Assembly: GCF_000212375.1 (NCBI RefSeq)
Contig: NC_015501.1
Location: forward strand, 682,001-746,000
Source of the DNA: Porphyromonas asaccharolytica DSM 20707
GTDB lineage: Bacteria > Bacteroidota > Bacteroidia > Bacteroidales > Porphyromonadaceae
Direction of reading: 5' to 3'
DNA: 64,000 bases
The notes beneath the pieces are model-generated. The model did not search any database. It was given only the letters and a program-made list of their open reading frames with translations, and was not told where the DNA came from. This document shows positions 799 to 62,694 of the stretch, in pieces. Within the stretch, counting starts at the first letter, position 1. Each line of letters opens with the position of its first letter. Made by a program: the position numbers and the translations under genes.

Positions 799-1016
799 CA
801 TATCGATGCGTGGGTGGCAAAAAGAGCCGATCTCCACGTAGGAATTTCCAAATCCCCACGTAGGAATTTCCAAATCTCCACGGAGGAAAGAAAAAATCCC
901 CACGGAGGGAAGAAACGAAACTTCGGAGGAATCAAATGAAACTTCCGAAGAATTTTTCCGTCCCCACGTGGAGAATAAAAAATAGCTACGTGGGAATTTT
1001 GACATTTCCCACGTAG
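799..1016 (-). repeat. CACGTG 22-bp module array, copy R1
   Basis: Non-coding array in the divergent gap between the left-edge surface protein and cardiolipin synthase. CACGTR/CACGGA modules begin at 835, 857, 879 and 901 (22-bp steps). Two core modules of the CTTCGGAGG/CTTCCGAAG type follow at 921 and 942, then CACGTG-type modules at 965, 987 and 1010. It shares the end sequence CATATCGATGCG (799-810) with copy R4. It has four modules on its left arm where other copies have three. No adjacent heptamer array is seen. Confidence 0.85.
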
Positions 1017-1121
1017 CTTTTATATAGACCTCTCAATCCCGTGAGTCAAGTAACGAGGGAGTCGGCTGAAAATCGTGTGTCTTGCATTTGATAGTTGAGT
1101 CTACGCCATACGATTGCCCTA

Positions 1122-2637: not shown

Positions 2638-3122
2638 GTCCCGCCATAAAAAAGCCTGCTGCCTATGGCAACAGACACAAAAAAGCCGCACTGCGGATTA
2701 GAAAAACTCCGAAGAACATACAAGTTTTGAGGATCCATCCCCCTTTGAAGTCCACTGGAGCAACAAGTACTCACACACTCACTAGGAGTCTGTCGAGGCC
2801 GGTCATCGGGTAGATAGAATGATCTCGGAATAGTCGATTAAAATTGAAGAGTTTCCGTATCGAGCAGTGCGGCTATGGGTCTGCGCTGTCTACATGTACT
2901 ATGTAAGAAGATCACGCTGCGCAGGCACCTATCGGTGTCTTGCTACGACAAATATAAGGCAATATTCTGAGTTATGCAAATAGAGGTACCTCAACCTCGA
3001 AAATCTCATTACAAGCGAGCTAGACATACTGATGGGTAGCGATCTGTACTGACGAGAAACGATTTGTAGGGGTACACGGCTCATCGGGCTACCTGATTTG
3101 CAGGGTCTAGGTTTGGTAGATG
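2638..3122. other. Intergenic region, no recognised content
   Basis: About 485 bases between cardiolipin synthase and the fMet tRNA promoter. Short open frames here lack good starts and family resemblance. An A-rich stretch with AAAAAAGCC occurs twice (near 2649 and 2680). I see no tRNA, clear terminator or repeat-family copy. Confidence 0.5.
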
Positions 3123-3154
3123 TTTGGCGGTCTCAGATATTCTTCGTACCTTTG
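3123..3154 (+). promoter_or_regulatory. Promoter of initiator tRNA
   Basis: TTTG at 3123-3126 and TACCTTTG at 3147-3154 are separated by 20 bp, a full match to the Bacteroidetes primary sigma promoter. The same 20-bp spacing and TACCTTTGC box occur at the three rRNA promoters. The tRNA begins about 15 bp after the -7 box. Confidence 0.85.
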
Positions 3155-3168
3155 CAGATACAAACGAT

Positions 3169-3240
<72 letters not shown>

Positions 3241-3249
3241 CTAACGATA

Positions 3250-3283
3250 GACGCATCCTTCCTTTGGGGTGCGTCTTTTTTTT
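3250..3283 (+). terminator. Rho-independent terminator after tRNA-fMet
   Basis: A 9-bp stem (GACGCATCC with GGGTGCGTC, one G-T pair) and short loop are followed by eight T residues. It begins 10 bases after the tRNA. Confidence 0.85.
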
Positions 3284-3380
3284 GTTGTCCCTCCGCTATG
3301 ACTGCGATGCGTGAGACGAAGATGAAGGAGAGTACGGCTGCAGCTTGATGCGCCTATTGGCAAAAGTGACTATATACGAA

Positions 3381-3423
3381 AAGCACGCTACAGACCCTCG
3401 TGTGAGGGTTCGTAGCGTGCTTT
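3381..3423 (-). terminator. Hairpin terminator downstream of rpmE
   Basis: A long stem pairs AAGCACGCTAC with GTAGCGTGCTT, extended inward by ACCCTC/GAGGGT around a GTGT loop. It lies about 60 bp past the L31 stop. T runs are short on both sides, so it may act in either direction. Confidence 0.65.
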
Positions 3424-3480
3424 GTCATTTGGTTGGGGACGAGAGACGCAGATCGGCGCTCTCAGACTCCGATGTGTGGC

Positions 3481-3744
3481 TTACTTGTCAGCCTTCTTAC
3501 CACGATTGCCGTAGCGGCTCATGAACTTATCGACACGTCCTGCCGTATCAACGAGCTTAGCCTTGCCCGTGTAGAAGGGGTGAGACGTGTTGGAGATCTC
3601 TATCTTGATGAGCGGATAGGTCTCGCCATCGATCTCGATGGTCTCCTTAGCGTTGGCTGTACTCTTCGTGATGAAGACTTCGTCGTTGGACATATCTTTG
3701 AATGCCACTGGACGGTAATTCTCAGGATGTAGATCCTTTTTCAT
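3481..3744 (-). CDS. rpmE2: 50S ribosomal protein L31 type B
   Basis: 87-residue protein of the large ribosomal subunit. The start MKKDLHPENYRPV, the central region with TYPLIKIEISNTSHPFYTG and the lysine-rich tail match L31. There are no cysteines, so it is the zinc-free type B form. The gene stands alone, with a leader of roughly 180 bases between a -7-like box at 3926-3933 and the ATG, longer than expected for a single ribosomal protein gene. A strong hairpin follows the stop. Confidence 0.93.
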   Translation of the reverse strand: MKKDLHPENYRPVAFKDMSNDEVFITKSTANAKETIEIDGETYPLIKIEISNTSHPFYTGKAKLVDTAGRVDKFMSRYGNRGKKADK

Positions 3745-3925
3745 TGCTTTGATGCGTTTAAGTAGTTAATAATCTTGCAGGGGCGTGGCTCTCCTTTCGT
3801 CAAGTGGCAAAAGGGCTAGCGCAGGATCTTCCTATCGTCTAGCACCACGTGGATACCGCAAGGGCTTGTCCCGATCAAGTAGCAATCGGTGAGCTGCTCA
3901 CACTTGGGAGACAAACTTCGAGGGG

Positions 3926-3933
3926 CAAAGGTA
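3926..3933 (-). promoter_or_regulatory. Candidate -7 box for rpmE
   Basis: CAAAGGTA reads TACCTTTG on the minus strand. No convincing TTTG lies 19-20 bp further upstream. If used, it gives a leader of about 180 bases before L31. Confidence 0.4.
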
Positions 3934-3979
3934 CAATAAATATCTGAATCTTCGCCCCTCGAGACTTTTCGATAATTCC

Positions 3980-4013
3980 GCAAGTCGGGTTACACGTCAA
4001 GTCGGGTTACACG
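3980..4013. repeat. 17-bp perfect tandem duplication
   Basis: CAAGTCGGGTTACACGT occurs twice head to tail immediately after the stop codon of the 4014-5930 gene. A small local duplication; no function evident. Confidence 0.75.
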
Positions 4014-5930
4014 TTAGAGCGTTACCTTGACCCAGTCGCTGCCGATCTGTAGGAGGTAGACGCCTGCGGGGAGCTGTGCGATGGAAAGCGTGGCGTCTCC
4101 CGTTGCCGTAGCGACAGGAGTACCCGTGAGCGTGTAGAGGCGGATCGTCTCGTCTGCCGTGACGCCCAGTACGGTGAGCGTCTGGTCGGTCTGAGCGATC
4201 TGATAGCGTGTGGCACTGACTGCATCGATAGCATCATGCTTGGCGAAGATCACCTTAACCTCCATCGTCTTGTCGACAGTCAGCGTGTAGCTTGCTTGCT
4301 CTTCGCCAGCGGGGATGACTTCGCCATTGATCTGCCACTCCTTGACAATGTGGTCGGTGAAGGCTTCTGCCTCGAAGAGCACCTTCGTACCCTTGGCAAC
4401 GAAGGTCCCGGAGGTAAACGGCTTGCCATCGACCGTGACCGTCAGCTTGCCCTCGCCTTCCTTGGAGAAGGTGACAGCATAATTGTCTTCCGCCCGGGCA
4501 AAGGTGACGGTGACCGTCATCGGTTCGCTATACATATTGACCTTAAAGGTAGCATCCGTAATCGGCTTCTTGTCAAGTCCTGGGGTCATCTGGACGATAT
4601 CATTGACACGCCACTCGGTGATGATGTACCCCTCGTCGGGCGTTGCGGTGAAGGTGAGCGGTGTGCCTGGCTCGACCTTGTCGTCAGAGGAGAGCTCTGT
4701 GTCGCCTGCCATAGCCTGGATAGAGCCACCCTCACTAGCAGAGAAGGTGAGCGGCTGCTTTTCCCCAGGGTAGACAGCGCCCTCGCGAGCTATGTCTAGC
4801 TTGAGCTCAGGAACTTCATAGGTGCTCTTACCATACTTGGGGTAGTATTCGTTGGTGACCTTGATGCTTAGCTGGATAGAGTCTAGCGGGTTGTCACCGC
4901 CAAAGCCTCCGAAGCCACGCTCGAGGATGATGAGGTCGCTCCCCTTGAGGATGTAGTCCTGTCCCTCCTTGAGTGTGCGTGGCGTGTTGAGCTGTCGGAT
5001 CTGCTTGATCGTACTAGGCTGTGCTTCGCCGTCGGCATCTTTCACCTCGAGCATATCGGCGAGGTGGATCGTGTTCTTGTCCACGCACTCAGGAGCTAGA
5101 CGTACGCCCTCCTGCCCATACTTAAAGGAGGTTAGCGCAGGGCGCTGGAGTGGTAGCGAAGAGTAGGGGAGGTAGTTGCGCGATAGGTCTACCTCTGTGA
5201 GTGCTGCTAGCTCTTTGATGCCGTCGATCTTGTAGAGGCTGCACTGCTTGATAGTGAGTTTGGTTAGGGCGGTCAGTCCTGTCAGATTGACCGACTCTAA
5301 GTTCGGCTGACGCTGTATATCGATCTCTTCTAGAGCTGTGTAGCCTGATAGGTCTAGATGCTTACTAGAGAGTATGGTATAGTTGCGATCGGTGTCGGAG
5401 TTGGAGGTGTACAGAGTCACCTTCTTGAGAACGGTGCGCTCGTTGGGGAGCTTAATGTCTAGCACATTGCGCAGGTAAACCTCTTCGAGCTTAGGGCACT
5501 CAGATAGGTCTACCATCTGCTCACGACTCTCCCGGAGCGTGTAGTTGTCTAGTCGGAAGGCTAAGACTTGTAGCTCGGGAGCAGCAATCTTGCCAAAGCC
5601 AGAAAAGCCAGGGGTTACGGAGGCATTACGTAGCTGCGTAAGCTGAGCGGCGTCAATCTTGATGACCGTCTCCTCCGTTGTCGCAGGGTCATACTTGTGA
5701 TTGACACCCTGATAGCGCCCTTTGTGTTGCTCTATGGTGCCATCTCCAAAGTCGATATTATTCGCCTCGGCGCCCTCGAGGTAGGTGACCTGGAAGTTGA
5801 CATACTGCGTACCCTTAGGTACGATCAGCTCGATCTGCGCGGTCTCGGCGGGATCTTGCGCAGTACAGACTGCCTGTCCGATTAGTAGGGCGGTCAGCAT
5901 GAGTAGTAAATAGTGTAGTCGTTGTGTCAT
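4014..5930 (-). CDS. Secreted LRR / InlB-repeat protein with type IX sorting domain
   Basis: 638-residue exported protein. The start is taken at the ATG at 5928-5930 because MTQRLHYLLLMLTALLIG to TAQ is a clean signal peptide; an upstream ATG and a longer frame would push it 20-26 residues inward. A domain with IDFGDGTIEQHKG follows, then leucine-rich repeats (LTALTKLTIKQCSL, LAALTEVDLSRNYL). Two Listeria-Bacteroides-type modules come next (EGYIITEWRVND, DHIVKEWQING). The C-terminus, with LYTLTGTPVATATG and LPAGVYLLQIG, resembles the type IX secretion signal. Likely moved across the outer membrane and anchored or released. Paralogue of the 1-662 gene and, in its repeats, of 6096-7694 and 57551-61708. 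Partner unknown. Confidence 0.82.
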   Translation of the reverse strand: MTQRLHYLLLMLTALLIGQAVCTAQDPAETAQIELIVPKGTQYVNFQVTYLEGAEANNIDFGDGTIEQHKGRYQGVNHKYDPATTEETVIKIDAAQLTQLRNASVTPGFSGFGKIAAPELQVLAFRLDNYTLRESREQMVDLSECPKLEEVYLRNVLDIKLPNERTVLKKVTLYTSNSDTDRNYTILSSKHLDLSGYTALEEIDIQRQPNLESVNLTGLTALTKLTIKQCSLYKIDGIKELAALTEVDLSRNYLPYSSLPLQRPALTSFKYGQEGVRLAPECVDKNTIHLADMLEVKDADGEAQPSTIKQIRQLNTPRTLKEGQDYILKGSDLIILERGFGGFGGDNPLDSIQLSIKVTNEYYPKYGKSTYEVPELKLDIAREGAVYPGEKQPLTFSASEGGSIQAMAGDTELSSDDKVEPGTPLTFTATPDEGYIITEWRVNDIVQMTPGLDKKPITDATFKVNMYSEPMTVTVTFARAEDNYAVTFSKEGEGKLTVTVDGKPFTSGTFVAKGTKVLFEAEAFTDHIVKEWQINGEVIPAGEEQASYTLTVDKTMEVKVIFAKHDAIDAVSATRYQIAQTDQTLTVLGVTADETIRLYTLTGTPVATATGDATLSIAQLPAGVYLLQIGSDWVKVTL

Positions 5931-14668: not shown

Positions 14669-14676
14669 CGAAATTG

Positions 14677-14780
14677 GAGATTAGAAGTTAGAGATTAGAA
14701 ATTAGAGATCGGGGTGCAAGTCTTCCTAGTAGCACTAGTGCAACTAGAAACGGACCTCTAATCTCTAACTTCTAACCTCT
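14677..14780. repeat. Inverted pair of heptamer (GATTAGA-like) arrays
   Basis: 14677-14710 holds about four heptamers of the form (A/G)(A/G/T)TTAGA in direct order. 14756-14780 holds the complementary form (TCTAATC, TCTAACT, TCTAACC). A 45-bp spacer separates them, so the pair could form a long hairpin. It directly adjoins array copy R2. Similar arrays lie next to copies R4 and R5. Confidence 0.8.
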
Positions 14781-14787
14781 CATTCGA

Positions 14788-14950
14788 TAGCTACGTGGAA
14801 AATCTTAAATCTCCACGTGGCTATTTTTTATTTTCCACGTGAGAAATCAGAAATACTTCGGACTTATCAATTGATTCTTCCGAAGTTTCATTTGATTCTT
14901 CCGAAGAATTTTTTCTCGCCCACGTGGAGAATTTTCATTTTCCACCGAGC
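14788..14950 (+). repeat. CACGTG 22-bp module array, copy R2
   Basis: Modules begin at 14792 (TACGTG), 14814 and 14836, then core CTTCCGAAG units at 14877 and 14898 (21-bp step), then CACGTG at 14921 and a decayed CACCGA at 14943. The distance from the third to the fourth CACGTG is 85 bp, against 64 in R5, consistent with one extra 21-bp core unit (an acttcgg relic near 14855). It lies in the divergent gap before the lysine operon. Confidence 0.85.
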
Positions 14951-14989
14951 TATTCGAAAATTCCTCCCGAGAAGAGACGAGTAGCCTGT

Positions 14990-31844: not shown

Positions 31845-32092
31845 TTTACATATCTTTACGGGGAAATTCGTCCGATTTCCTCCTTTCTCGAATATCCACG
31901 TGGGAAATCTCAATTCTCCACGTTGATATTTTTTATTTTCCACGTGGGCGTCATTCATTTCTTCCGAAGTTTCATTTGATTCCTCCGAAGAATTTTTTCT
32001 TCCCTACCTGGAAAATGAAAATTCTCCACCTGGATATTTTGGAATATCCACGTGGAAATCACTTTTCCCCGACACGGCGCCGCCTCGATATG
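31845..32092 (+). repeat. CACGTG 22-bp module array, copy R3
   Basis: Modules begin at 31897, 31919 (CACGTT) and 31941; core units at 31961 and 31982; then decayed TACCTG 32005 and CACCTG 32027, and CACGTG 32049. All arm steps are 22 bp. Outside the modules, about 50 bp on the left and 35 bp on the right match the flanks of R4 in inverted orientation, including CGATATG at the right end. It lies between two divergent genes. A remnant heptamer (CTCTAACCTCTG) precedes it. Confidence 0.85.
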
Positions 32093-43801: not shown

Positions 43802-44050
43802 CATATCGATGCGGGGGCTGTGTTGGGGAAAAGTGATCTCCACGTGGATATTTCCAAATCTCCACGTGGAGATTTTTTCTTTCCCACGTAGGAAAGAAAA
43901 AATTCTTCGGAGGAATCAAATGAAACTTCGGAGGAAATGAATGACGCCTACGTGGAAAATAAAAAATATCCACGTGGAGATTTGAGATTTTCCACGTGGA
44001 TATTCGAGAAAGGAGAGAATCGGACGAATTCCCCTGTAAAGATATGTAAC
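43802..44050 (-). repeat. CACGTG 22-bp module array, copy R4
   Basis: CACGTG-type modules begin at 43841, 43863 and 43885; core CTTCGGAGG units at 43905 and 43926; then 43949, 43971 and 43993. All arm steps are exactly 22 bp, with a 21-bp core step. The flanks extend to CATATCGATGCG on the left and GTAAAGATATGTAAC on the right, both shared with R3. It lies between ansA and the rhodanese gene, both on the minus strand. Confidence 0.88.
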
Positions 44051-44088
44051 TAGAGATTAGAGGTTAGAAGTTAGAGATTAGAAATTAG
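44051..44088. repeat. Heptamer (GATTAGA-like) array next to R4
   Basis: About five heptamers (AGATTAG, AGGTTAG, AAGTTAG, AGATTAG, AAATTAG) directly follow R4 and run into GGGATCGG. The array at 14677-14710 ends in nearly the same GAAATTAGAGATCGG. Confidence 0.8.
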
Positions 44089-44104
44089 GGATCGGAGAGC
44101 AGGG

Positions 44105-47348: not shown

Positions 47349-47422
47349 GCTTCCTTAGCTCAGTTGGTTAGAGCATCTGACTGTTAATCAGGGGGTCCTT
47401 GGTTCAAGCCCAAGAGGGAGCG
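47349..47422 (+). tRNA. tRNA-Asn (GTT), copy 1
   Basis: 74-nt cloverleaf with anticodon GTT at 47383-47385, acceptor GCTTCCT/AGGGAGC (one T-G pair), T-stem CTTGG/CCAAG. The CCA end is not encoded. Confidence 0.94.
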
Positions 47423-47462
47423 CAACGAGTGGATCATCAGTGAGGCTGTTAAGTCTCGTACT

Positions 47463-47536
47463 GCTTCCTTAGCTCAGTTGGTTAGAGCATCTGACTGTTA
47501 ATCAGGGGGTCCTTGGTTCAAGCCCAAGAGGGAGCG
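47463..47536 (+). tRNA. tRNA-Asn (GTT), copy 2
   Basis: Identical to copy 1 over its whole length, 40 bp downstream. It is followed by GCGCAGCG where copy 1 is followed by GCGCAACG, consistent with a recent tandem duplication. Transcribed from the same promoter. Confidence 0.94.
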
Positions 47537-47621
47537 CAGCGTTGCTACACTGAGTTGTTTTGTTTTTTGGCTTGAGAGAAAGCTGTTGTCTTTTGAGCCT
47601 TCATATTTGTGGTTAACAAAA

Positions 47622-48415: not shown

Positions 48416-50029
48416 ATGATGATTTGGTTGAAATATCTAGGGCTGTCGGGGATAGGGATTGCTCTCTTTTATCTCCTCGGAGTGGTATTGCTCCGCAAAA
48501 GCACCCTACTCCGAGCCAAGCGGTGGTATTACCTTATCGCCATCGTTTTTAGCCTTTTGCTCCCTCTGCTCTCTTTAGCAGTACCAAAAAGGGAGGTAGA
48601 GGAGGCACAAGACAAGCTACTCCCCAGTTTCACCATTGTGATAGAGGAGGAACCAACCATCACTGCACCTGCTACAAAGAGAAACACTATTGACTGGACC
48701 AGAGTGCTGATGGCAACTTGGGCTATTGGTGCAGCAAGTACGCTCATCTGGCTCACCTCTGGCGGGTACAAACTCTATAGATTATGCCGTACTTCCACGA
48801 AGCGCGAGCTCAGTCACAACGCCACACTTTATGAGGTAGATGAAGAGCTAGCCCCCTTCACGATTGGCAGGGCGATCTTTATCCCCAAGTCATTATCACA
48901 AAGCGATATCACACCCACTATTCTGTCGCATGAGCTGGAGCACATCAGGCAGAAGCACTATTGGGATATCATCATTAGTACGGTGCTGCAGCCCTTACAG
49001 TGGTGGAATCCATGTGCGTGGGGATTGCTCCAACAACTGCGCACTAACCTTGAGTACCTAGCAGACCAAGGGGTGTTGCGAGAGGGAAGAGACCGAAAGA
49101 CCTACCAGTACCAGTTACTGGAGTGTACACTAGGCCGAAAGGTAGAGCTACCCTCGCTCTCATTTTCTATGCAAAACCTAAAGAAACGAATCGTAATGAT
49201 GAACAGCAAGAACAGAACCAACAAGAAACTAGCCGTAGTTTACGCACTTTCGGCCCTTCCAGTACTTGCCTTCTTGGCACTCGGTACTCAGATGGTCACC
49301 ATCAAGCAAGCCCAAGCAAGCACCATCACAGAGGTGGCTCCGCCACCAACCGAAGACAAGGTCTTTGAAAAGCTAGATGTACTACCTGAATTTCCAGGAG
49401 GTGGAAAGGCAATGATGCAGTGGATCAGCCAAAATATGCAATACCCAAAGAATGCTGTAGACGGCAATATCGAGGGGCGTGTAATCGTCTCATTTATTGT
49501 CGAAAAGGATGGCTCTATCTCCAATGTCGAGGTAAAGAAAAGTGTCCACGAGTTACTAGACAAGGAGGCGCTAAGAGTGATCAATGCCATGCCTAAGTGG
49601 AACCCAGGCATGCAAGATGGACAACCGGCAAGAGCCCGCTTCTTTGTTCCAATCAGCTTCAAAACCCAACAATCTGCAGAAGTTAAGGAAAAGGTCTTTG
49701 AGGACCTAGATAATATGCCTGAATTCCCAGGAGGAGGAAAGGCAATGATGGAGTGGCTTAGCCAAAATATCCAGTATCCAAAGGAGGCAGTTGATGGCAA
49801 GATTGAGGGACGTGTGATGATCTCATTCGTGATTGAGAAGGATGGCTCCGTCTCCAATGCCAAAGTCTTTAGGGGCATAGATGAGTCACTAGACAACGAG
49901 GCGCTAAGAGTGGTCAATGCGATGCCCAATTGGAAGCCAGGTATGCAGGATGGCCAGCCAGCAAGAGCCCGCTTTACCATCCCTGTCAGTTTCAAGCTCC
50001 CTAGGTCTACCCCAGCACCAACCAAATAA
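48416..50029 (+). CDS. BlaR1-like M56 peptidase fused to two TonB C-terminal domains
   Basis: 537 residues. About four membrane segments (residues ~4-25, 40-60, 98-118, 275-295) enclose an M56 zinc protease domain with HELEHIRQKHYWD. Two tandem copies of a ~110-residue TonB C-terminal-like domain follow, each starting KVFE.LD..PEFPGGGKAMM and ending ARARF..P.SFK. They replace the penicillin-binding sensor of BlaR1. The family is common in Bacteroidetes and of unknown signal. It likely senses a periplasmic cue and cleaves the BlaI-type repressor. Start 5 bp after the repressor stop. Confidence 0.9.
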   Translation: MMIWLKYLGLSGIGIALFYLLGVVLLRKSTLLRAKRWYYLIAIVFSLLLPLLSLAVPKREVEEAQDKLLPSFTIVIEEEPTITAPATKRNTIDWTRVLMATWAIGAASTLIWLTSGGYKLYRLCRTSTKRELSHNATLYEVDEELAPFTIGRAIFIPKSLSQSDITPTILSHELEHIRQKHYWDIIISTVLQPLQWWNPCAWGLLQQLRTNLEYLADQGVLREGRDRKTYQYQLLECTLGRKVELPSLSFSMQNLKKRIVMMNSKNRTNKKLAVVYALSALPVLAFLALGTQMVTIKQAQASTITEVAPPPTEDKVFEKLDVLPEFPGGGKAMMQWISQNMQYPKNAVDGNIEGRVIVSFIVEKDGSISNVEVKKSVHELLDKEALRVINAMPKWNPGMQDGQPARARFFVPISFKTQQSAEVKEKVFEDLDNMPEFPGGGKAMMEWLSQNIQYPKEAVDGKIEGRVMISFVIEKDGSVSNAKVFRGIDESLDNEALRVVNAMPNWKPGMQDGQPARARFTIPVSFKLPRSTPAPTK

Positions 50030-61870: not shown

Positions 61871-61919
61871 ACTAATCTCTAACCTCTAATTTCTAATCTC
61901 TAACTTCTAATCTCTAATT
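61871..61919. repeat. Heptamer (TCTAATC-like) array next to R5
   Basis: About six heptamers (TCTAATC, TCTAACC, TCTAATT, TCTAATC, TCTAACT, TCTAATC) ending 8 bp before the first CACGTG of R5. Same family as the arrays beside R2 and R4. Confidence 0.82.
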
Positions 61920-61921
61920 CG

Positions 61922-62090
61922 ATATCCACGTGGAAAATCTCAAATCCCCACGTGGATATTTTTTATTCTCCACGTAGGCGTGAATCATTTCCTCCGAAGT
62001 TTCATTTGATTCCTCCGAAGTTTCATTTCACGCCCACGTGGAGAATTTTCTTTTTCCACGTGGAGATTTGCGAATTTCCACGTGGAGATC
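61922..62090 (+). repeat. CACGTG 22-bp module array, copy R5
   Basis: CACGTG begins at 61927 and 61949, CACGTA at 61971; core CCTCCGAAG at 61991 and 62012; CACGTG at 62035, 62057 and 62079. Arm steps are 22 bp and the core step 21 bp. Cleanest copy, with five of six arm modules a perfect CACGTG. It lies between the giant surface protein and the rRNA promoters. Confidence 0.9.
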
Positions 62091-62198
62091 TACCCCTTCT
62101 GAGGATAAATCGTCTTGGGGCATAAGAGATCCAGTCCATCACAGGCCAATGCAGGTCGCTCCCAGCGCCACAAAATCATAATTAGCAGCCTTCGCCGG

Positions 62199-62249
62199 AA
62201 AAAAAGTTTGCCAAACATTTGGTAGATTGGAAAAGTTGTAGTACCTTTG
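62199..62249 (+). promoter_or_regulatory. rRNA promoter P1
   Basis: A-tract at 62199-62205, TTTGGT with TTTG at 62218-62221, 20-bp gap, TACCTTTG at 62242-62249, then CACTCGCAACTC. Tandem with P2 and P3. Confidence 0.85.
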
Positions 62250-62381
62250 CACTCGCAACTCAAAAGAACGGGGTTTCGGAAGTGTCTGAGCCTCATGAGA
62301 GGCGAGTAGGTTTTTGATGTTAAGAGCATCGCTTGGCGACCCTATATATAATAGGTGTAAGACGCACGAGCGAGGAGCTCG

Positions 62382-62433
62382 AAAAAAAACTTCTCCGAAA
62401 ATTTGGTGGATTCAAAAAGTTGTCGTACCTTTG
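62382..62433 (+). promoter_or_regulatory. rRNA promoter P2
   Basis: A8 tract at 62382-62389, TTTG at 62402-62405, 20-bp gap, TACCTTTG at 62426-62433. Its downstream CGGAAGTGTC also follows P1, so the modules look duplicated. Confidence 0.85.
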
Positions 62434-62617
62434 CATTCGCAACCTCAAAGAAAGGGTGGTCGGAAGTGTCCGGCGCACGATTGGGGTTTGGTTACGATGG
62501 TAGCTGATCGAAACGCTTGCTGAGTCTATGTGATGACTCGCTTGCCAGGTTGATTTAGAGACTCAATGAAGCACTTGCTCGTATGAGTGTTCATCGACTG
62601 ACAAAAAACGATCGGCG

Positions 62618-62669
62618 AAAAAAAACTTCTCCAAATATTTGGTGGTTTCAAAAACTTGTCGTACCTTTG
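62618..62669 (+). promoter_or_regulatory. rRNA promoter P3
   Basis: A8 tract at 62618-62625, TTTG at 62638-62641, 20-bp gap, TACCTTTG at 62662-62669. Closest to the rRNA, giving a leader of about 310 bases. Confidence 0.86.
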
Positions 62670-62694
62670 CACTCACAACCCGCAAGAAAAAGCA

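Follow-up and report, generated by a model that had tools for sequence, protein, structure and literature searches.

A dispersed eight-unit palindromic array with a rigid register and even chromosomal spacing in Porphyromonas asaccharolytica

Array architecture in the window and across the genome

The window, the whole 64,000-nucleotide stretch analysed here, spans positions 682001-746000 of the single 2,186,370-bp contig of P. asaccharolytica. It carries five copies (R1 to R5) of an intergenic array of short palindromic units (Table 1), all of which were found in the sequence at the places given by a preliminary description of this DNA. The window contains 37 occurrences of CACGTGG where 6.5 are expected, and none of 100 shuffles reaches that number. 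The arrays follow the plan PPPCCPPP, in which P is a palindrome of the CCACGTGG type and C is a core unit of the form CTTCSGARG. In R5 the unit centres lie at 61929.5, 61951.5, 61973.5, 61995, 62016, 62037.5, 62059.5 and 62081.5, separated by steps of 22, 22, 21.5, 21, 21.5, 22 and 22 bp.

Table 1. Array copies and the adjoining heptamer repeat, in window coordinates.
Feature	Position	Strand	Description	Basis
R1	830..1017	+	palindromes at 837.5, 859.5, 881.5 and 903.5 (left) and at 967.5, 989.5 and 1011.5 (right)	sequence; profile match
R1 core unit CTTCGGAGG	921-929	+		sequence
R1 core unit CTTCCGAAG	942-950	+		sequence
R2	14787..14955	-	three palindromes, three core-like units, right arm decayed	sequence; profile match
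R3	31891..32060	-	eight units, some palindromes decayed, spacing kept	sequence; direct repeat D1; inverted repeat I1
R4	43835..44004	+	eight units	sequence; inverted repeat I1
R5	61922..62090	-	eight units: three palindromes, two core units, three palindromes	sequence
R5 near-invariant core	61988..62020	-	family consensus CTTCGGAGGAATCAAATGAAACTTCGGAGGAA; two direct 21-bp units	89-copy consensus, ~2 bits per position
Heptamer array (RRTTAGA)n	61872..61918	-	adjoins R5	inverted repeats I17, I19 and I21

The preliminary description had assigned all five copies one plan of usually three palindromes, a core and three more palindromes. The common plan holds, but R1 has a fourth palindrome on the left and R2 departs from it in its additional core unit and degraded right arm, and what had been taken for a single core unit consists of two direct 21-bp units. 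Its remark that the spacing outlasts the decay of the palindromes agrees with R3, where the register is intact. The flanks of R3 are extended, with a TTACATATC-type end on the left side, and R4 forms with R3 a 255-bp inverted match, flanks included, that is 89% complementary.

The same architecture was found throughout the genome, with exactly PPPCCPPP in 61 of 122 copies and about eight units in most of the remainder. The P-P step is 22.0 bp in 412 of 419 cases, the P-C step 21.5 bp in 118 of 124, the C-P step 21.5 bp in 108 of 109 and the C-C step 21.0 bp in all 112, counts that come from profile-found copies and so favour intact copies and under-represent badly broken ones. The mean pairwise identity of the copies is 72%, yet indels are rare. 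Gap-free alignment of 89 copies gave about 2 bits per position for the core ACTTCGGAGGAATCAAATGAAACTTCGGAGGAA, high values for the palindromes and intermediate ones for the spacers; conservation stops sharply at the outer palindromes, and the flank consensus beyond them is uninformative. The 33-bp core is nearly invariant across the family, and, within the palindromes, the central CG and AT pairs rank with the best conserved positions. Among the palindromes 63% are CCACGTGG; deviations usually consist of one transition at the third base out from the centre, CTACGTAG (14 of 534) being the sole other perfect palindrome.

Two further ideas about the array were tried and rejected. Intrinsic bending by phased A-tracts found no support, since wedge-model curvature was not above that of shuffles (z -0.6). 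A core-encoded peptide, MKLRRNQ, preceded by an SD-like GGAGG, was set aside because, judged by eye, the common variants change its amino acids and the frames differ from copy to copy.

Family size, relatives and genomic surroundings

The five copies are members of a dispersed, non-coding family at about 125 sites on the 2,186,370-bp chromosome, built on an array of about 170 bp and with copies ranging from about 170 to 250 bp. R5 as a query returned 40 or more matches in this genome, and the core pattern gave 67 forward and 68 reverse matches against 0 for a reversed control. A profile made from 89 core matches and run on 1.07 Mb of the genome (all known copies and the large gaps) yielded 131 strong matches at 125 sites, a count that may miss weak copies outside the 1.07 Mb, which lay mostly around copies. 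The genome-wide search proposed in the preliminary description disclosed a family far larger than five. Its statement that no named family resembles the array was upheld, no counterpart having come to light in Rfam, plasmids, phages, viral contigs or a partial library of papers: with R5, Rfam gave two chance-level matches (24.7 and 21.3 bits, the cut-offs being 64 and 80), and the search for the array in phages, plasmids and viral contigs gave no match.

A search of related Porphyromonas genomes, likewise proposed there, added four carriers with many copies each, namely G018, P. uenonis (G013), G002 and G019, with 216, 133, 211 and 65 core matches, respectively; R5 found no match in 21 other genomes of the genus. 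The 22-bp register described for five copies extends well beyond them, the P-P step being 22 bp in 23 of 23 cases in G018, where copies often read PPCCCPPP with the total number of units unchanged. Among 21 copies sampled from P. uenonis, 12 carry TTCCTACCTAGGAA-type units with a step of 23 bp in 22 of 23 cases, while the unit-to-core distance stays at 21.5 bp in 11 of 12 and the core is kept. An exact 22-bp spacing is thus correct for P. asaccharolytica and G018 but not for the main P. uenonis subfamily. The accompanying idea that all palindromes lie on one face of the DNA is not supported as a conserved property, since two helical turns amount to 21 bp against steps of 22 bp here and 23 bp in that subfamily, the latter showing that helical phase is not constant.

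Outside the genus, three genomes of a sister genus (L035, L036 and L037) hold one copy each in near-identical surroundings. The L035 copy lies between a relaxase-like gene and a TraG-like, coupling-protein-like gene (both named from translations), and for this reason it most likely resides in a conjugative element. A relaxase gene closely similar to the L035 one is also present in P. asaccharolytica (L158, 14801-15997).

The copies are intergenic, between 44 divergent, 61 tandem and 16 convergent gene pairs by simple longest-ORF calls, which approximates the make-up of all intergenic gaps of at least 200 bp in this genome. Convergent pairs are not enriched at copies, and a terminator role was rejected on that ground. 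With respect to replichore, orientation was random by a runs test in both P. asaccharolytica and G018. Some copies are interrupted, by an IS3-type element at 961-963 kb and by a transposase-like insert at 1657-1659 kb (named from translations).

Heptamer arrays often flank copies genome-wide. Besides the one at R5, (RRTTAGA)n arrays lie beside R2 (14670-14718) and R4 (44053-44101), and the genome contains 169 + 159 matches to this repeat against 5 and 11 in the control. On one strand up to 970 kb these arrays look evenly spaced themselves (CV 0.52, P 0.0004). About 12 of 32 sampled arrays adjoin an element, and those standing without one may mark places that elements have left or will come to occupy. 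A different heptamer, (GTTGGCY)n, forms a long array in the equivalent position beside an element of P. uenonis (L181, ~3000-3500). On the right flank of the same copy (~3780-4100), an insert with GAGACTGTTGCA...TGCAACAGTCTC ends is nested inside the element end; GAGACTGTTGCA is given in the excerpt of PMC4596501 as the terminal inverted repeat (TIR) of MITE464/PgRS of P. gingivalis, indicating that known MITE types coexist with the arrays as separate families.

Even spacing and shared places with replaced sequence

The 125 sites are separated by a mean gap of 17.5 kb (median 16.5 kb) with a CV of 0.447. Random placement gave a CV of 0.99, or 0.76 with a 4-kb exclusion, and none of 2000 draws was as low as observed; a null that used the genome's actual intergenic gaps gave 0.90-0.95, the lowest of 2000 draws being 0.69. 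Gaps below 10 kb numbered 20, against about 52 in the intergenic null (lowest draw 36). In G018 (first 1.74 Mb, both strands listed) the CV was 0.586 against 0.98 and gaps below 10 kb numbered 8 against 33, values not fully independent of P. asaccharolytica, as some sites are common to both. By contrast, the palindrome family with consensus GACGCACGAGCCGTGCGTCCCTACA lacks such evenness in this genome (CV 1.39). Regular placement is not what one would generally expect of high-copy intergenic repeats, and here two genomes combine strongly self-avoiding, near-regular placement with a rigid multi-site array. A scale of about 17 kb is close to the estimated size of supercoil domains and to the range in which Mu immunity fades. 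The even spacing points either to a site that organises the chromosome or to a self-avoiding mobile element, and the depletion of close pairs agrees with transposition immunity without telling it apart from selection. Within one large element-free gap (42 kb, among the largest), the stretch at 994280-1012500 (L154) carries genes that read as parB and parA.

Many places are shared between species. About 60% of sampled copies from G018 and P. uenonis (20-odd each) abut, on at least one flank, an element of P. asaccharolytica, where roughly one intergenic gap in ten (22 of 225) contains an element; the P. asaccharolytica sequence used was fully read near elements and half read elsewhere, with unmapped sites scored as unshared. 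Each of three P. uenonis copies has its two flanks from different P. asaccharolytica copies, and rearrangements break at copies. Copies at the same place are not nearest relatives: in same-place pairs the P. asaccharolytica counterpart ranked 61, 10, 51, 4, 13, 18 and 12 of 108, and a tree clusters copies by genome (11 changes against 29 when shuffled). These two results together indicate that occupancy was kept while the sequence was replaced, a pattern most simply read as gene conversion among copies.

Occupancy is not absolute. Four sites filled in relatives are empty in P. asaccharolytica, two of them within heptamer repeats, which implies that no single copy is indispensable; position 400841 is such an empty site relative to G018. 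One empty-site comparison, for a P. uenonis copy, revealed a possible 8-bp flanking duplication, ACTGATYT. Inverted ends ACATATC/GATATGT stand at a fixed distance on one or both sides of 22 of 99 copies in P. asaccharolytica and of 18 of 22 in G018, and some P. uenonis copies have a different, TGACGCATGATAAAAA-type inverted end.

Proposed readings: a protein-bound array, a self-avoiding element and others

The reading we place first, still tentatively, is that the array is under constraint, is bound by protein and has to do with the organisation of the chromosome. The eight-unit intergenic array would be recognised by one or more DNA-binding proteins, their targets being the palindromic units of the arms and the direct 21-bp units of the core. 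The spread of copies may originally have been MITE-like, and resident copies would since have been retained and made alike because the array is of use to the whole chromosome, possibly anchoring a nucleoid or topology protein about every 17 kb. The model would be gyrase and IHF on the BIMEs of enterobacteria, where gyrase is the ligand of BIME-2 and IHF that of the inter-REP sequence between paired REPs (PMC2817692).

With RNA action, bending and a RAYT link disfavoured, recognition by a DNA-binding protein is the reading left, and a chromosome-level setting for it is favoured by a register almost free of indels at such sequence divergence and by the almost invariant core of resident copies, as well as by the even spacing in two genomes and the places shared between species. 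The core also persists with changed arms in P. uenonis and in the probable conjugative element of the sister genus. A role for the whole chromosome, rather than gene by gene, is argued for by a gene context that is simply that of ordinary large intergenic gaps, and a chromosome-level role also by occupancy outlasting sequence. The array of a repeated binding protein envisaged in the preliminary description is consistent with the conserved palindrome centres, the rigid spacing and the lack of cross-arm covariation, but not in its strict helical-phase form. Against a chromosomal role, immunity can predict the even spacing equally well, empty sites occur, and the sharing of positions can be plain inheritance. 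The more specific proposal is possible but more doubtful: that evenly spaced arrays mark or anchor domains of about 17 kb, whose places persist across species as gene conversion continually renews the sequence, and whose units changed specificity in concert from CCACGTGG to TTCCTACCTAGGAA in one species. Whether repeats organise a chromosome or their order was left by a self-avoiding transposon is testable in this one system, and either answer would be informative; the unit switch of P. uenonis offers a natural experiment toward finding the putative binding protein.

The alternative of a self-avoiding transposon, a possible though doubtful account, treats the family as a MITE-like mobile element without host function, whose arms would be arrays of ~22-bp transposase sites and whose spacing would result from transposition immunity, bound copies clearing a target-capture ATPase from nearby DNA. 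Known systems provide the parts: Tn7-type ends are multiple 22-bp TnsB sites (PMC9371665), comparable as arrays of ~22-bp protein sites, and Mu, in which immunity over kilobases would space copies, shows immunity in vivo that is strongest near 5 kb and fades over 5-25 kb (PMC7350765), similar to the depletion seen here. The empty sites, the ACATATC/GATATGT or TGACGCATGATAAAAA-type ends in subsets of copies and the possible ACTGATYT duplication also agree with mobility. However, the ends occur in just 22 of 99 P. asaccharolytica copies whereas conservation peaks in the internal core, two species have different ends around the same array, and resident copies hold the register strictly. In contrast to Tn7 and Mu ends, the units are palindromic and surround an internal core, and the copies are non-coding; no match to Mu-transpos_C was found in 26 genomes of the genus, a search in which the control genomes were silent too.

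As to kind, the family is short, non-coding and present in many dispersed copies, as MITEs generally are. One of the closest comparisons is the BrickBuilt MITE of P. gingivalis, of the same genus, which in the excerpt of PMC4596501 is likewise intergenic and dispersed, with ~23-nt tandem units between flanking segments. According to the same excerpt, the BrickBuilt unit AGAYCATARTATCCTCTCRTRTG (23 nt) is non-palindromic, unlike the CCACGTGG and CTTCSGARG units, and its TIR is GAGACCTTTGCA, whereas the arrays have uninformative flanks and, in subsets, ACATATC or TGACGCATGATAAAAA ends; BrickBuilt has about 19 copies against about 125 and consists of tandem repeats rather than a fixed eight-unit plan, and the excerpt contains no description of even spacing. 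The array corresponds to no Rfam family, to BrickBuilt in neither sequence nor ends, and to REP/BIME not in its association with RAYT; it is a dispersed palindromic, MITE-like repeat with unusually even spacing.

An old, neutral MITE family with incidental spacing, produced for instance by recombination that removes close pairs, is an unlikely explanation. Copies do act as recombination partners, as the P. uenonis copies with mixed flanks attest, and other intergenic repeats are abundant in the genome. Such a history predicts none of the indel-free register, the invariant core and the depletion of gaps up to ~10 kb.

Improbable, too, is an RNA element, in which transcription through the array would yield a long hairpin acting in transcript termination or in the protection of mRNA ends. 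The predicted fold of R5 is strong (-86.2 kcal/mol, z -14), but any set of palindromes in inverted arrangement would give one. Covariation of RNA arms against conservation of DNA palindromes, a comparison put forward in the preliminary description, spoke for DNA: cross-arm pairs showed no covariation (observed equal to expected) and the palindrome centres are conserved, the would-be loop ACGT being among the best conserved parts. Covariation within units was weak (odds ratio 3, uncorrected for kinship between copies), convergent gene pairs are not enriched, and the even spacing would go unexplained.

Least probable is mobilisation by a RAYT transposase, as in a REP/BIME-like (REPIN) family: high copy number, intergenic location, palindromic units in composite arrays and inverted arms recall the BIME/REP repeats of enterobacteria (PMC2817692), but the units, the core, the rigid eight-unit plan and the even spacing differ, and this reading is largely refuted by the distribution of Y1_Tnp (PF01797): a search of the five carriers did not detect it in G002, G018 and G019, and it is present in the non-carrier G012.

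Other repeats were noted alongside the arrays. The second intergenic palindrome family, with consensus GACGCACGAGCCGTGCGTCCCTACA, has 53 matches in the genome, clustered and not evenly spaced, and an inverted repeat in the window (14989-15028/15065-15104) looks like a diverged relative of it. To the right of R5 (62196-62689) lie three repeats with a TTTG...TACCTTTG promoter-like sequence, spaced by 184 and 236 bp. The window further contains tandem tRNA-like repeats that are 99% alike (47349-47427 and 47463-47541) and an ORF (48416-50029) with a 333-bp tandem duplication (49355-49866 and 49550-49995).
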